A DNA stretch of 64,000 bases from Streptomyces sp. Tue6028 (GTDB lineage Bacteria; Actinomycetota; Actinomycetes; Streptomycetales; Streptomycetaceae): the NCBI RefSeq assembly GCF_002300165.1, contig NZ_MLCE01000015.1:186001-250000 (forward strand), written 5' to 3'. Of the stretch, positions 44,762-51,418 are shown in pieces. Position 1 is the stretch's first letter. Every line of letters begins with the position of its first letter. The notes under the pieces were generated by a model. It was not told the origin of the DNA, made no database searches, and saw only the letters and a list, made by a program, of their open reading frames with translations. Position numbers and translations under genes: made by a program.

Positions 44762-46123
44762 TCACGCGTACAGCACGCCCCCGGCCTGGTCGTCGAAGGC
44801 CTCCGGCCAGTAGCGGCGGCCGTCGTCGCCGGGCAGGGTCGGGGTCGGGTCGCAGGCGACGGGGTCGACCGTGGCGAGGGTCTGGGACATCGTGGCGGCG
44901 AGCTGCTCGTAGGTGTCGCTGAGGTCGTGGGCCGCGTCGAGGGCCTTCTCGCGGTGCAGCAGCCAGAGCGTGAAGGCGAGGGTGGAGATGTCGGCGTTGA
45001 GCGGGCGGAGGGTGAGGTCCGGCTCGCTCCAGGCGAGGACCGCGCCCGTGCCGCCGTCCACCACGAGGCTGATGTCCTCCACCAGGTGGCCGAGGCGTAT
45101 CAGACGGTCGGCGGTGGCGGGGAGTTCGTCGGCGGAGAACTCGCCGGGGCGCTCGTCGGCGTAGTACTCGGTGAGGGCCGGCAGCGGCACCTCCGTGTCG
45201 AGCTGGAAGAGGAAGCCGTCCTCGGGCAGCCCGGTCTCGCGCAGGAAGCGGCGGGTCGGCTCGTGGGTGAGCGCGGACGGGAAGTCGACGTCCTCGAAGC
45301 GCATGATCCCACCGGTGCCGAACTCCTCGTCCAGCAGCCGCTTCGGCAGGTCGAGGACGAGTCCGTCGCCGGGGCCCGCGATCCTGGTGAGCGGGCGGAT
45401 CAGCGCGGCCATCCGCCAGAACGGCGGCACCCGGTCCCCCGCGGCCTCGGCGAAGACGGCGCTGAGCCGCTCCGAGGCCTCCGTGACCGCCTTGGGGCCG
45501 AACCGCCAGCGGGACGAGGCGAGTTCGGTCGCTGCTGCTCCGAAGTCGAACTGGCCGCGGGACGACGTGAGTTCAGCCGTGACTGCTCCGGATCCGCCAC
45601 GCGGCGGCGCGAGTTCGGTCGCGGCGGTTCCCTTGCCGAACCGCCCACGGGACGGGGCACGTGCCGCCGGGCTCGTCTCGAGGTCGAAGGCGGTCCTGGG
45701 GACGGACCGGCCGCGGGGCGAGGACAGTTCCTCCGTGACCGCGGCGAAGCGCAGCAGGGCCTCCAGGGAGGGTGCCAGCGGGGTCAGGTCCATGGGGGCG
45801 GGGCGGCGGCCGAGGTACGTCGTGGAGATCTCCCCGGTCGTGCCGTCGAGCACGATGGACTCAAGGTCCCGGTCCAGGCTGCGCAGGGCTCCCACGACGA
45901 CCTGGTCCCGGAGCTCCCCGGCGAGTCTGTCGGCGTCGCCCGCGAGATCCGTCAGCCGCCGCAGGCCGTGCTCGCGCAGTGCGCCGAACGCCAGCAGCGC
46001 GCCGTCGTGGGGCAGTCCGGGGCCGGTCAGCAGGTGCCGCGTCCCCGTGTGCGTGACGTACGGGTCCAGCTCGTCGTCCGTCAATGTGATCGCACCGCCG
46101 ACGCCGGTGTCAGTCGTGCTCAT
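44762..46123 (-). CDS. SUKH-type immunity-like protein with tandem domains
   Basis: The 453-residue protein contains two similar halves: residues about 15-128 and about 215-450 each hold a segment like THTGTRHLLTGPGLPHDG / THEPTRRFLRETGLPEDG and a later LV(E/D)-type acidic strand, the pattern of SUKH-4 proteins. SUKH proteins neutralise polymorphic toxins. No toxin gene is next to it. The two halves are joined by an unusual linker (129-214) of ELxSSRGxF-like repeats. The family call is from memory of the pattern. Confidence 0.6.
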   Translation of the reverse strand: MSTTDTGVGGAITLTDDELDPYVTHTGTRHLLTGPGLPHDGALLAFGALREHGLRRLTDLAGDADRLAGELRDQVVVGALRSLDRDLESIVLDGTTGEISTTYLGRRPAPMDLTPLAPSLEALLRFAAVTEELSSPRGRSVPRTAFDLETSPAARAPSRGRFGKGTAATELAPPRGGSGAVTAELTSSRGQFDFGAAATELASSRWRFGPKAVTEASERLSAVFAEAAGDRVPPFWRMAALIRPLTRIAGPGDGLVLDLPKRLLDEEFGTGGIMRFEDVDFPSALTHEPTRRFLRETGLPEDGFLFQLDTEVPLPALTEYYADERPGEFSADELPATADRLIRLGHLVEDISLVVDGGTGAVLAWSEPDLTLRPLNADISTLAFTLWLLHREKALDAAHDLSDTYEQLAATMSQTLATVDPVACDPTPTLPGDDGRRYWPEAFDDQAGGVLYA

Positions 46124-46287
46124 GGCTCCCCCGCGCATGTGAACGCATCGTGCTTCCCCCTGTGGGGAACAGCTCCGCGTCCCGCGGCGGTTCCCCATGT
46201 CCGAGAACCATACGCCGCGGCACTGACAACGCCGGAAACTCCCGGGAACGAGCCGCCCACGGCCCAAGCGGACCGGCGGTCCGCCGC

Positions 46288-46449
46288 TCAGCCGAAGTAC
46301 ACGCCGCCCGCGACGACGACCACGGCGGCCAGGACGAACACCAGCACCCAGAGGGCCAGTTTCCCGACGCCGGGCGCGGGTTCGTAGCGCGGCTCCCCGT
46401 TCCCGGGGGCCTGCGCGGGCTCGCCCGCCGTCGGCCCGGGCGCGCTCAC
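46288..46449 (-). CDS. Small single-pass membrane protein, 53 aa
   Basis: Short ORF, GTG start: a Pro/Ala/Gly-rich N-terminus, then one membrane helix near the C-terminus (KLALWVLVFVLAAVVVVAGG). It overlaps the stop of the molybdenum hydroxylase large subunit (GTGA), the same coupling as the other genes of this operon, so it is probably the fourth member. It could tether or stabilise the complex at the membrane; this is inference. Confidence 0.65.
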   Translation of the reverse strand: MSAPGPTAGEPAQAPGNGEPRYEPAPGVGKLALWVLVFVLAAVVVVAGGVYFG

Positions 46450-48752
46450 GCGCCCGTCACCACGGCCGCCTGCGGGCGGATCGGCAGGCGGTTGACGGGA
46501 CGGCCCGTCGCCGCCCGTACGGCGGAGGCGACCGCCGCCGGGGACGTCACGACCGGCACCGCGCTGACCGCCTTGGCGCCGAAGGGGGCGACGACGTCGC
46601 GCTCCTCGACGAGCTTGACGATGTGGATGTCGGGGGCGTCCAGGGCGGTGGGAAGGGAGTAGCCGGTCAGGTCGGGATGGCGGACGAGGCCGCGGGCCGT
46701 GCGCAGGTTCTCCGTCAGCGCGGCGCCGACACCCTGGGTGACGCCCGCCTCGATGCGGGCGGCGAGCTGCGCCGGGTTGAGCACCCGGCCGACGTCCTGG
46801 GCGAGCGCCAGTTCCACGACCCGTACGGAGCCGAGCTCGATGTCGACGTCCACGACCGCGCGGATCGCGCAGAAGGCCAGGCCCACGAAGGCGTCGCCCT
46901 GACCGGCCTCGTCGAGCGGCTCGGTGGGGTGCGGGCGGCACTGCGCGGTCGCCCACAGCTCCTTGCCGTCCATCGCCTCGGTGACCGTGGTGGACAGCAC
47001 CCCGTCGTACGAGGTGATCTTGCCGTCGGTGATCTGGAGCAGTTCGGTCGACATCCCGAACTTGTGCGCCAGGGGCTGGAGCAGCTGGGTGCGGACCATC
47101 TTGGCCGCGCGCTCCACGGCTCCGCCGGACACCCAGGTGTGGCGGCCTCGGCAGCTCGCGCCGGCCGGCGGCTGGTCGGTGTCGACGGGCGCGACGTGCA
47201 CCTCGTCGATGCCGAGCGTCTCCTGGACGATCTGCCGGGCCAGCGTGGTGAAGCCCTGGCCGGTCTCCACGGCCGCGCACAGCACCGTGGCGACGCCGTC
47301 GTGGACCTTCACGGTGGCCGTCGAGACCTCGTCGGCGCCCTCGGCGCCGAGCATGTGGACCATGCCGAGGCCGTATCCGACGCCGCGGCGCACGGCGCCG
47401 GGCTCGCCCGCGCCCTCGGGCCCGCCGGGCAGCAGCCACTCGTCCTCGGGTGTGTCCTTGGGGAGCGCGGGGAGCGGGTGGTCCCGTACGGCCTGGAGCA
47501 GTTCGGCGACCGGGGCCGGGCACGTCACCGTCTGTCCGGTCGGGAGCACGTCGCCCGTGGCCATGGCGTTGCGCAGGCGCAGTTCGGCCGGGTCGACGCC
47601 GAGCTTCTTGGCCAGCTTGTCCATCTGCGCCTCGTAGGCGGCGCACACCTGCATGGCGCCCTCGCCGCGCACATGGCCGGAGGGCGGGTTGTTGGTGCGT
47701 ACCGCCCAGCCCTCGATGAAGGCGTTCGGGACGACGTAGGGGCCGCAGGCGAAGGCTACGGCGGCGGCCAGCGACTCGGCGGAGCTGTCGGAGTAGGCGC
47801 CGGCGTCGAGCAGGATCTGCGCCTCGACCTTCACCAGCTTGCCCTCGGCGTCGGCGTGGTGCCGGTAGCGCAGCAGCGTGGGGTGCCGGTGGGCATGGCC
47901 GAGGAAGGACTCCTCGCGCGTAGCGGTGAGTTTGACCGGGCAGCCGGTCTTCAGCGCGAGCAGGCCGAGGGGCAGCTGGAAGCCCTGGTCCTCCCGGTCG
48001 GCGGTGGCGCCGGGGACGCCCGTGACGACGACCTTCACGCGTTCGGGTTCCAGGCCGTAGCAGGCGGCGGCGGTGTCGCGGTCGGTGTGCGGGTCGGTGG
48101 AGGCGAGGTAGAGCTCGACGCCGCCGTCGGGGCGGGGCACGGCGAGGCCGGCTTCCGCGCCGATGGGTGCCGGGTCCTGGCGGCCGATGCGGTACTGGCC
48201 CTCGACGACGATCTCGCCGACCGCGTCCGGGTCGCCGTGGCGCAGCGGGATGTGGCGGATCAGGTTGCCGTCGGGGTGCAGGGGTTCGGCCTCGAAGGCG
48301 AGCTCCGGGTCGGTCACCGCGTCGAGCACCTCGTACTCGACGATGACGGCGGCGGCGGCCATGCGGGCGGTGTCGGGGTGGTCGGCGGCGACGGCCGCGA
48401 TGGGCTCGCCGTGGTGGCGGACGACCTCGGAGGCGAACACCGGGCGGTCGGCTCTGCCGCGGCCGTGCAGCGGGTTGCCGGGCACGTCCTCGTGGGTGAC
48501 GACCGCGCGTACGCCGGGCATCTCGCGCGCGTGGCTGGTGTCGATGGACACGATGCGCGCGTGGGGGTGCGGCGACCTGAGCACGGCGGCCCACAGCAGG
48601 CCCTCGGCCCACAGGTCCGCGGCGTACGGGAAGGTGCCTTCGGTCTTGGCGCGGGCGTCCGCGGCGGGCAGCGAGACGCCGATCCCGTGCGGCAGGGGCT
48701 CGGGGCCCGTGTCGGGCACCGCCGGTGTCTCGGTGGCGGTTTCGTTGCTCAC
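46446..48752 (-). CDS. Xanthine-dehydrogenase-family molybdopterin subunit, catalytic Glu absent
   Basis: This 768-residue large subunit of a molybdenum hydroxylase starts with the a/b hammerhead (GIGVSLPAADARAKTEGTFP, VVTHEDVPG) and continues with Mo-cofactor domains (SGHVRGEGAMQVCAAYEAQ, AGASCRGRHTWVSGG). In the normal GxKGxGE motif the Glu abstracts a proton from Mo-OH. Here the corresponding stretch near the C-terminus reads GAKAVSAVP (about residues 725-733), with Gly to Ser and Glu to Ala. The protein may have lost, or carries out differently, the hydroxylation step. It is coupled to both neighbours by GTGA overlaps. Confidence 0.88.
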   Translation of the reverse strand: MSNETATETPAVPDTGPEPLPHGIGVSLPAADARAKTEGTFPYAADLWAEGLLWAAVLRSPHPHARIVSIDTSHAREMPGVRAVVTHEDVPGNPLHGRGRADRPVFASEVVRHHGEPIAAVAADHPDTARMAAAAVIVEYEVLDAVTDPELAFEAEPLHPDGNLIRHIPLRHGDPDAVGEIVVEGQYRIGRQDPAPIGAEAGLAVPRPDGGVELYLASTDPHTDRDTAAACYGLEPERVKVVVTGVPGATADREDQGFQLPLGLLALKTGCPVKLTATREESFLGHAHRHPTLLRYRHHADAEGKLVKVEAQILLDAGAYSDSSAESLAAAVAFACGPYVVPNAFIEGWAVRTNNPPSGHVRGEGAMQVCAAYEAQMDKLAKKLGVDPAELRLRNAMATGDVLPTGQTVTCPAPVAELLQAVRDHPLPALPKDTPEDEWLLPGGPEGAGEPGAVRRGVGYGLGMVHMLGAEGADEVSTATVKVHDGVATVLCAAVETGQGFTTLARQIVQETLGIDEVHVAPVDTDQPPAGASCRGRHTWVSGGAVERAAKMVRTQLLQPLAHKFGMSTELLQITDGKITSYDGVLSTTVTEAMDGKELWATAQCRPHPTEPLDEAGQGDAFVGLAFCAIRAVVDVDIELGSVRVVELALAQDVGRVLNPAQLAARIEAGVTQGVGAALTENLRTARGLVRHPDLTGYSLPTALDAPDIHIVKLVEERDVVAPFGAKAVSAVPVVTSPAAVASAVRAATGRPVNRLPIRPQAAVVTGA

Positions 48753-50248
48753 GCCTGGCCTCCGTCCTGGCCGTACGGCTGCTCATGCGGCGCCTGGGGG
48801 TCGTACGGAGAAGTGTCCTCGAAGGAGCCCGCTTCGTAGGCCGCCGGGTTGACACCGCCCGCTCCGGGGCCCGCCTGGTGCGGGATGCGCGCCTCGTCGA
48901 CGTCCGGCGTGGCATCGGTGGCGGAGTGCGTCTCGCGTTCGGCGACGACCTCGCGGACGGCGTCCAGGACACCGCGGTAGCCGGAACAGCGGCAGAGGTT
49001 GCCGCACAGTGCCTGACGGGTCTCCAGCTCGGTCGGCGCGGGGTTGCCCTCCAGCAGGTCGTGCAGGGTCATCGCCATGCCCGGCACGCAGAAGCCGCAC
49101 TGCACGGCACCGCACCTGGCCAGCGCGCGCTGCACGTCGGAGGGCTGTCCGTCGGCGGCCAGGCCCTCGACGGTGCGCACCTCGCTGCCCGCCGCGGTGA
49201 CGGCGGGCACCAGGCAGGAGGCGACGAGCCGGCCGTCGACCTGGACGTTGCAGGCGCCGCACTCGCCCTGCGAGCAGCCGTCCTTGGCGCCGGCGAGGCC
49301 GAGGCGTTCGCGCAGGACGTAGAGCAGCGACTCGCCGATCCAGGCGTCGGTGACGGGGCGGTCCGCGCCGTTGACGCTCAGGACGTACGAGGCGAGGGGG
49401 TGTTCGTCGTTCGAGGGTGCGGCGGCGGCCTCCGCGTCGTGGGCCGAACCGGTCTCGGTGTCCGCCTCGGGGGCGGGTGTACCGGTCCGGGTGGCGTCGG
49501 GGGCCGCGGCGGCCTCGTGCGCCCGGTCCGGCGCGTGCTCGACCGGCCCGGCGGGGTCGGCCGTGCCGGTCTCCTCAGGGGCCTCGTGCGCGGGCCCGGC
49601 GGGCTCCTGGGCGTCCGGGGCGGGCGCGTGCGGGTGCGGGTGCGTCGAGGTGCCCCCGGGGCCCCCAGCGGGCCCCTGCGGCGGCTCGGCGGTCCACGCC
49701 TGGCCGATGGCTTCGGACGCCCAGGGTGCGGCGGCGCCGCCGGGGAGGGTGGCGGGCGGGTTCCCGCCCCACTGCTCGACGAGCGCCGACGTGGTGAACT
49801 CGCCCGATTCGTCCGGGAGGTCGCCTCCGGCGACGGGGATGGACCACTGACCGGTCACGTCGTGGCCGGGGGCGGCGCCCTCCTGGGCGGCCTCGCTGAA
49901 GTCCCACTGTCCGGTGGCGGGCGGCTGGTACGAGAACCGGTCGTCCGGGGCCTCCTGGGCCCCGGTGCCCGGCTCCGGCCAGTCCGTGGACCCGGGCGGC
50001 ACGTTCCAGGTCCCGGTGGCGGCCGGGTCGGTGGCGTCCGGGGTCGCGGGCTGCACGCTGATCTGCGGGGGCACGTAGCCGTGGCCGGGGGCCGCGAGCG
50101 GGCTCTCCCGTTCGGCGAGGAGGGCTTCGATGCCCCCTTCGGGGAGCTTGACGAAGGCGGTGGCCCCGTCGTCGTAGTCGCCCTGGGGCAGCGGGTCCCA
50201 GCGGCCCCCGCTCTGCGGGGTGCCCTCTCCGTGCTGGTCGTCGGTCAC
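48749..50248 (-). CDS. Molybdenum hydroxylase 2Fe-2S subunit with long disordered N-terminus
   Basis: The 499-residue protein has a [2Fe-2S] ferredoxin domain and a second [2Fe-2S] helical domain only in the C-terminal part (residues about 288-440): cysteine sets CSQGECGAC and, later, CGAVQCGFC and CGNLCRCSG. Such subunits are usually about 160 residues. The first 285 residues are Ala/Pro/Gly/Glu-rich, with three TG(Q/T)W motifs (TGTWNV, TGQWDF, TGQWSI). A tail of about 60 residues follows the iron-sulfur domain. The GTG at 50248 overlaps the FAD-subunit stop. Confidence 0.85.
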   Translation of the reverse strand: MTDDQHGEGTPQSGGRWDPLPQGDYDDGATAFVKLPEGGIEALLAERESPLAAPGHGYVPPQISVQPATPDATDPAATGTWNVPPGSTDWPEPGTGAQEAPDDRFSYQPPATGQWDFSEAAQEGAAPGHDVTGQWSIPVAGGDLPDESGEFTTSALVEQWGGNPPATLPGGAAAPWASEAIGQAWTAEPPQGPAGGPGGTSTHPHPHAPAPDAQEPAGPAHEAPEETGTADPAGPVEHAPDRAHEAAAAPDATRTGTPAPEADTETGSAHDAEAAAAPSNDEHPLASYVLSVNGADRPVTDAWIGESLLYVLRERLGLAGAKDGCSQGECGACNVQVDGRLVASCLVPAVTAAGSEVRTVEGLAADGQPSDVQRALARCGAVQCGFCVPGMAMTLHDLLEGNPAPTELETRQALCGNLCRCSGYRGVLDAVREVVAERETHSATDATPDVDEARIPHQAGPGAGGVNPAAYEAGSFEDTSPYDPQAPHEQPYGQDGGQA

Positions 50249-51138
50249 GACAGCGCCCTCCCCAGTGCTCGTCGGGCCAGCGCGGCGACGGTGCGCCGCA
50301 GGTGCAGTACGGCGGGCGGAAGCTGCCCCGGGGAGCCGTCCTCGGCGGGCCCCGGATCCGGGATGCAGGCCGCGGCGACGTACTCGCCGAACGCGTGAAG
50401 CGCCTCGGGCACGATCGAGCGGCTGTTGTCCCAGTCGATCAGCTGAGCGACCCACGCCTCGGCGTCCAGGGGGCGCAGCGGCATCGGCGCTATGGCCCCG
50501 ACCGCGCACCGCACGCCGCGTCGCGCCGGGTCGAGGACGAGTGCCACCGAGGCGACGGCACGGCCGGGCCCGGTGCGTCCGGTGGCCTTGAGGAAGACCT
50601 GCGGGGCGTGCAGCAGCGGCACGCGCACGTAGCCGATGAGCTCGCCGCCGCGGAGCATCTCCATGCCGGCCAGCAGGTGCGAGACGGGGATCTCGCGGCG
50701 GGCTCCGCCCTGGCCCGCGACGATCAGCGTGGCCTCCAGGGCGGCCAGCACGGGCAGCGCGTCGCCGGTCGGGGCGGCGCTCGCGATGTTGCCGCCGAGG
50801 GTGCCGGCGTTGCGGATCTGCGGCGGTCCGGCCGCGCGCGCGGCGGCGGCCAGCGCCGGGATGAGCGCCGCGAAGTCGGGGCGCCCCATGCGGGCGTGGG
50901 TGAGGCCGGCGCCGAGCAGCGCGTGGCCGTCCTGGTACTGCCAGCCGCGGATCTCGCTGATCCGGCCGAGACCGACGAGCGCGGCGGGCCGCAGCTGTCC
51001 GGAGTTGACGGCGGCCATGAGGTCGGTGCCGCCGGCGACGGGGACGGCGGCGGGCATGGCGGCCAGAGCCGCGACCGCCTCGTCCAGCGAGGCGGGCAGC
51101 GTCACGGCCTGCGCCGCCTGCGGTGCGTGCGTGGTCAA
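50245..51138 (-). CDS. Molybdenum hydroxylase FAD-binding subunit
   Basis: The 297-residue CoxM/XDH medium subunit has FAD loops VPVAGGTDLMAAVNSG (about 30-45) and IRNAGTLGGNIASAAPTGD (about 103-121). It passes electrons from the 2Fe-2S clusters to an acceptor. The TTG at 51138 (LTTHAPQAAQ) is chosen because GGGAAGGGGC precedes it and the frame further upstream lacks family sequence. It is the first gene of a four-gene coupled operon. Confidence 0.85.
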   Translation of the reverse strand: MTTHAPQAAQAVTLPASLDEAVAALAAMPAAVPVAGGTDLMAAVNSGQLRPAALVGLGRISEIRGWQYQDGHALLGAGLTHARMGRPDFAALIPALAAAARAAGPPQIRNAGTLGGNIASAAPTGDALPVLAALEATLIVAGQGGARREIPVSHLLAGMEMLRGGELIGYVRVPLLHAPQVFLKATGRTGPGRAVASVALVLDPARRGVRCAVGAIAPMPLRPLDAEAWVAQLIDWDNSRSIVPEALHAFGEYVAAACIPDPGPAEDGSPGQLPPAVLHLRRTVAALARRALGRALS

Positions 51139-51418
51139 ACCGGCTGCCCCTTCCCGCTGCCCCACCTGGTCCCACCTGTGCTGCCGTACGGTACGTGCTG
51201 ACAGGGCGGACGTGGCAACTCTGGCACATCTTCCCCGGACCTCGACGCGGGGGTCCGCTAGGAGGCATTCGCCCCCCTCACCAGCGAGATGGTCCGTTTT
51301 CGTACGGCATCGCGAATGAGCGCGAATTGCCACTCTTCGGTGATCCTTGGGGGCCTTTTTCCTCGTGAGACGGCGGTGCCGGGGTGAACGTCGTGTGACA
51401 CACCGGTGGGGAGTCACC

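Follow-up and report, generated by a model that had tools for sequence, protein, structure and literature searches.

Predicted remodelling of the molybdenum site in a xanthine dehydrogenase-type complex of the Streptomycetaceae

Genomic locus and operon organisation

The window analysed here is a stretch of 64,000 nucleotides from Streptomyces sp. Tue6028 (contig NZ_MLCE01000015.1). On its minus strand lies an operon encoding, in this order, an FAD subunit, an iron-sulphur (Fe-S) subunit and a large subunit of the molybdenum (Mo) type, the last being an open reading frame of 768 codons (Table 1). Both partner genes are intact and lie upstream of the large-subunit gene. At both junctions of the operon, start and stop codons overlap in the four bases GTGA, with the start codons inferred from the sequence. 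The gene order around the operon includes GH20, ABC transporter, MurA-like, HU and malic enzyme genes.

Table 1. Features of the operon, its upstream element, the altered positions of the large subunit and two downstream genes
Feature	Position in window	Strand	Basis
Upstream element, nearly invariant, probable promoter/operator	51184..51226	(-)	
FAD subunit	50245..51138	(-)	predicted TTG start
Fe-S subunit, two [2Fe-2S] clusters, eight Cys kept, long low-complexity N-terminal extension	48749..50248	(-)	predicted GTG start
Mo-type large subunit, 768 aa, PucD-type by descent, remodelled Mo site	46446..48752	(-)	
Residues 218-222, STDPH vs canonical TQWLH; Gln to Thr219, Asp220 newly fixed	48087..48101	(-)	alignment
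Residues 245-255, GVPGATADRED vs canonical GVGGAFGGRED cofactor loop	47988..48020	(-)	alignment
Residues 362-365, RGEG; active-site Arg kept, Glu364 newly fixed (canonical Phe/Leu)	47658..47669	(-)	alignment
Residues 534-538, CRGRH vs canonical SASRQ	47139..47153	(-)	alignment
Arg666 instead of canonical pterin-site Gln	46755..46757	(-)	alignment
Ala731 codon GCG, catalytic-Glu column	46560..46562	(-)	DNA, HMMER alignments, 145-orthologue alignment
Small predicted single-TM protein	46288..46449	(-)	
SUKH-4 family gene	44762..46267	(-)	

The partner subunits match Fer2_2 and FAD_binding_5, as is expected of partners in the xanthine oxidase family, which carry two [2Fe-2S] clusters of the plant type and the FAD domain typical of molybdopterin dehydrogenases. 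The eight Fe-S Cys are invariant in the alignment of all 31 family members tested and four basal sequences, and the Gln ahead of the second cluster is also kept. Likewise, the FAD motifs AGGTDLM and TLGGNI are kept in nearly all family members tested. The N-terminal extension of the Fe-S subunit is of variable length and carries TGQW-type motifs. It is present in most inspected Streptomyces loci and in some other genera, where it was gained, and is missing in canonical members and in several other genera of the family. A relationship of the TGQW motif to other proteins was considered and set aside, as the matches were weak and unconvincing.

Upstream of the FAD gene, a 43-base element, TGCCAGAGTTGCCACGTCCG..GCACGTACCGTACGG, is conserved across the Streptomycetaceae, in 86 of 87 loci, and is likely a promoter or an operator. 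A genome-wide regulon using this element was rejected, since a second site is absent from the genome at up to three mismatches. A structured leader RNA was rejected as well, with no Rfam family on that strand and a fold z of +2.0.

The catalytic glutamate column

The large subunit shows the domain order of the xanthine oxidase family, namely Ald_Xan_dh_C, MoCoBD_1 and MoCoBD_2, with Pfam E-values of 1.4e-30, 1.8e-53 and 3.2e-46, respectively. The conserved catalytic Glu of this family is Glu869 in the D. gigas aldehyde oxidoreductase (AOR) and Glu1261 in the bovine enzyme (PMC4726530). In the aldehyde oxidase of the mouse, hydrogen bonds link the equivalent Gln and Glu to the ligands of Mo, and the Glu is supported by a serine (PMC3864932).

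The C-terminal motif of the studied subunit is PFGAKAVSAVPVV, with GAKAVSAVP beginning at residue 725, and the DNA over it reads gcc aag gcg gtc agc gcg gtg, which gives Ser730 and Ala731. The HMMER alignments with the sequences of solved structures placed Ala731 opposite the motif Glu of AOR (GVGE) and of quinoline 2-oxidoreductase (GMGE), as well as opposite the Glu of the GAKEASEG motif (ASEG) in 4-hydroxybenzoyl-CoA reductase. The position held by the catalytic Glu in molybdenum hydroxylases (bovine 1261, AOR 869) is occupied here by Ala. Across 145 aligned Streptomycetaceae orthologues, no Glu was found in this column, which contains Ala in 142 sequences and Ser, Thr and a gap in one each, whereas all 20 canonical relatives have Glu and the other aligned paralogues of the window genome keep it too. 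As 145 orthologues have this state in common, it is no sequencing slip, and judging from the alignment the change is ancestral. The original prediction, made for the window alone, thus proved right about the reading frame, the motif with its Ser and Ala codons, the assignment of the Glu column and the intact, coupled partner subunits, and the change it described is common among the orthologues.

Changes in the rest of the molybdenum pocket

The same prediction had regarded the rest of the large subunit as intact and the Glu change as a single one, and in this it did not hold. The comparison of pocket columns in the 145 orthologues with those in the 20 canonical relatives points instead to a remodelling of the entire Mo pocket that is ancient, spans the family and includes the newly fixed acids Glu364 and Asp220. 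Among five classical Mo-site positions, the Gln (Thr219), the loop Phe (Thr250) and the Glu are lost, and Glu254 and Arg362 are kept. We take the columns of Thr219 and Thr250 to be those of bovine Gln767 and Phe798, and Glu254 and Arg362 to be the counterparts of bovine Glu802 and Arg880.

The Mo-proximal Gln expected of a hydroxylase is present in 20 of 20 canonical relatives and replaced by Thr219 in 145 of 145 orthologues. The GGxFG cofactor loop (GGAFG in canonical members) has become PGATA, with Pro247 at the Gly column in every one of the 145 sequences and Thr (121), Met (15) or other residues at the Phe column, where none of them has Phe. Both neighbours of the conserved Arg537 in the Ser-Arg-Gln motif have changed, the preceding residue to Gly (S536G) and the following one to His (Q538H), each in 138 of 145 orthologues. 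The pterin-site Gln is replaced by Arg666 in all 144 orthologues with a residue at that column. Columns 250, 534 and 728 are lost and now variable.

In total, 39 of the 177 columns invariant in canonical members are lost, 16 of 30 in the Moco-contact segments and 23 of 147 elsewhere (Fisher p = 3e-5); this value is indicative only, because the segments, taken from the AOR structure, were fixed when the lost columns were already known. The Moco-site residues still present are Glu254, Arg362 (in 143 of 145 orthologues), Gly498 and Gly500, Arg537, Lys727 and Gln673. The GQG motif is also kept, with its Gln499 in 136 of 145.

The newly fixed residues of the pocket are Thr219, Asp220, Pro221, Pro247, Glu364 and Arg666. 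Glu364, two residues past the active-site Arg, is found in 145 of 145 orthologues at a position that is Phe or Leu in canonical members, and Asp220, beside the lost Gln, replaces the Trp of canonical members in 144 of 145. Canonical members, the sister lineage G091 and the basal genera lack both, so that the two acids seem to have arisen together with the Glu to Ala change, on one branch. By HMMER, Glu364 aligns with AOR Tyr535, which gives its putative position relative to Mo, and in the loop alignment AOR Phe425 corresponds to Glu254; these two AOR residues sandwich the substrate ring (PMC4726530).

One orthologue (L122, genome G163) matches as two parts in one open frame, with an insertion between about residues 430 and 437, and has His as the equivalent of Arg880.

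Predicted structure

The AlphaFold model of the large subunit (pLDDT 86, pTM 0.87) has the fold of XDH/AOR large subunits, with a Z of 47.0 and an rmsd of 2.6 over 699 residues against 1dgj, and a Z of 43.3 and an rmsd of 2.8 over 716 residues against 1jro_B. Residues 249-252 of the cofactor loop have a pLDDT below 50. The matching loop of the canonical paralogue is likewise below 50, and low loop confidence was dropped as a sign of cofactor loss because this control behaves alike.

Phylogeny, distribution and selection

In the ML tree, obtained by a quick search with SH-aLRT support only, the studied sequences nest within the PucD-type enzymes as one clade with strong branch support. The successive sisters are L054, then L049 from another family of the order, and then the Streptomycetaceae. 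L054 (genome G137) is fully canonical, with Gln, Phe and Glu, and scores 826 bits to the pucD model, above the cut-off, while L049 (781 bits) has lost the Gln and kept the Glu. Four basal members of the family from two genera (L123-L126; g45 and g48) have Asp in the catalytic-Glu column, and the rest of the family has Ala. The Mo-proximal Gln survives in two of the four, and these basal members may represent an intermediate. As the Gln is missing in L049 but present in those two sequences, its loss was no single clean event.

At the threshold applied, the gene was found in 343 of the 346 family genomes, a few of the best matches having only about 50% identity. Among the three remaining genomes, two are fragmented assemblies, and the third gives a match that is split, at 66-68% identity. 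In a class-wide sample, a threshold of this kind was passed by only two genomes from outside the family, with identities of 46-48%.

Pairwise dN/dS was 0.05-0.12 in the lineage of the window and up to 0.15-0.22 in more divergent pairs, compared with 0.17-0.36 in two canonical control pairs; pN/pS in the segment of the C-terminal motif was 0.049. All these values are approximate, because the NG86 method was applied to high-GC DNA. As part of the explanation favoured below, and with the same fair degree of confidence, we place the remodelling of the Mo site at the root of the Streptomycetaceae or close to it, after which it would have been kept by purifying selection.

Relation to known enzymes

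The closest family by score, with the same three subunits, is the PucD-type xanthine dehydrogenase subunit D (NCBIfam TIGR03196). The large subunit reaches 654.4 bits, under the equivalog cut-off of 783.65 bits, and the canonical paralogue of the window genome also falls slightly short of it (766.7 bits). Unlike PucD-type enzymes, this clade has lost the Gln, the loop Phe and the catalytic Glu, and its pocket is remodelled. The canonical paralogue, a separate PucD-type xanthine dehydrogenase on contig C25, is about 44% identical and has both Gln and Glu; the ORF beside it presumably encodes a PucR-type regulator. 4-Hydroxybenzoyl-CoA reductase, D. gigas AOR and quinoline 2-oxidoreductase, which are among the best matches of solved sequences, are alike in large-subunit fold and domain order but have Glu where the studied subunit has Ala731.

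XdhABC of S. coelicolor is the same kind of three-subunit complex, regulated by XdhR and involved in purine salvage (PMC6627660). It is nevertheless encoded by a different gene from the one studied here, and the window genome has its own canonical xanthine dehydrogenase elsewhere. The probable S. coelicolor orthologue is SCO2940, since the gene order of the operon agrees with the published annotations, in which SCO2940 is 'xanthine dehydrogenase, putative' and SCO2951 is malate oxidoreductase (PMC3770449). The 886 proteins followed over time by iTRAQ in S. coelicolor M145 include SCO2940 (PMC3770449).

With pseudoenzymes in general, the complex shares the ancestral loss of catalytic residues and strong retention of the protein; it differs from them in retaining the redox partner subunits and the cofactor ligands. 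No described inactive or Glu-less protein of the xanthine oxidase family was found in the literature searched.

Functional interpretation

The explanation that we favour, and consider fairly probable, is that a former PucD-type xanthine dehydrogenase trimer persists as a redox complex of FAD and Fe-S clusters whose pocket is repurposed or free of Moco. In the aligned sequences, the catalytic Glu, the Mo-proximal Gln, the Phe and Gly of the cofactor loop and further pterin-site residues are lost, and the eight Cys ligands of the Fe-S clusters, the FAD motifs and, in the model, the subunit fold are retained. From this we infer that the standard base-assisted Mo-OH hydroxylation of purines and aldehydes has been lost. 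The complex would descend from a trimer with FAD, two [2Fe-2S] clusters and a Mo-type subunit, whose Mo active site was dismantled and remodelled. It would most likely work as an FAD/iron-sulphur redox module, in which NAD(P)H or another reduced carrier may deliver electrons to the FAD, from where they would pass through the two clusters to a putative partner; alternatively, it may be a redox or ligand sensor. The old Mo subunit would then be a scaffold with a repurposed ligand pocket, probably without functional Moco. As Glu254, Arg362, the GQG motif, Arg537, Lys727, Gln673 and the Gln of the Fe-S subunit persist, some pterin may still bind. Continued electron transfer into or out of the former Mo site would explain the two retained clusters no less well than a route towards a partner. 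With more reserve, we regard it as quite possible that the complex is an actively maintained derivative of a molybdoenzyme, found across the family, whose Mo site now serves as a novel pocket for binding or catalysis (Glu364, Asp220, Thr219, Pro247 and Arg666), either Moco-free or holding the cofactor differently, and wired by the Fe-S clusters to FAD. We know of no described counterpart of such a redox enzyme or sensor, which would be conserved in all Streptomyces under the annotation of a xanthine dehydrogenase.

The main alternative, a changed reaction with Moco still bound, in which the base has moved to a new acid (Glu364 or Asp220) and the enzyme accepts a new range of substrates or carries out a redox reaction without hydroxylation, appears rather unlikely. 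The two acids are fixed in the clade and do not occur in canonical members, in G091 or in the basal genera, and Glu364 aligns with AOR Tyr535, a residue that packs against the substrate (PMC4726530), although its place relative to Mo comes from the alignment. Moreover, Arg362, Glu254 and most of the GQG motif are kept, as are both Fe-S clusters, which form the electron route from Mo to FAD. The joint loss of the Mo-proximal Gln, the loop Phe and Gly, the Ser-Arg-Gln motif and the pterin-site Gln, however, points to disturbed cofactor binding. An ordinary molybdenum hydroxylase using a different base or solvent, with substitutions that tune only the substrate, is improbable: the whole fold, the subunits and some active-site residues are kept, but Glu, Gln and loop Phe are lost together throughout the family, and the canonical relatives and other aligned paralogues keep the Glu. 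Least credible is a non-functional relic in decay, which would account for the lost catalytic residues and for variable columns such as 250, 534 and 728 but is opposed by the open frame in nearly all genomes, the low dN/dS in the window's lineage, the fixed new residues, the conserved upstream element and the probable detection of the protein in S. coelicolor.

The original prediction had offered changed chemistry, a new substrate or inactivity. The loss of the Glu and a departure from ordinary hydroxylase chemistry are supported, while simple inactivity by decay is unlikely because the remodelling is ancient, family-wide and under strong purifying selection. Changed chemistry and a non-catalytic redox role remain the two candidate readings.

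By its sequence, this near-universal complex of the Streptomycetaceae, annotated as xanthine dehydrogenase, is very likely not one, and it probably does a different redox job. Genome-scale models and purine-salvage annotations that count the SCO2940-type protein as a xanthine dehydrogenase would then be wrong. Moreover, the canonical sister, the loss of Gln, the change of Glu to Asp and that of Glu to Ala form a natural series, which allows one to ask how a molybdoenzyme drops its metal chemistry yet keeps its electron-transfer chain, and what the complex is later used for.

Genes downstream of the operon

In a single subclade of Streptomyces, the operon is followed directly by the SUKH-4 family gene. 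Neither this gene nor the small predicted single-TM protein was accepted as a core part of the system, because each is confined to part of Streptomyces. The gene of the small protein overlaps the stop codon of the large subunit, and its motif PRYEPPPSVGKL.. is conserved in about ten examined Streptomyces loci.
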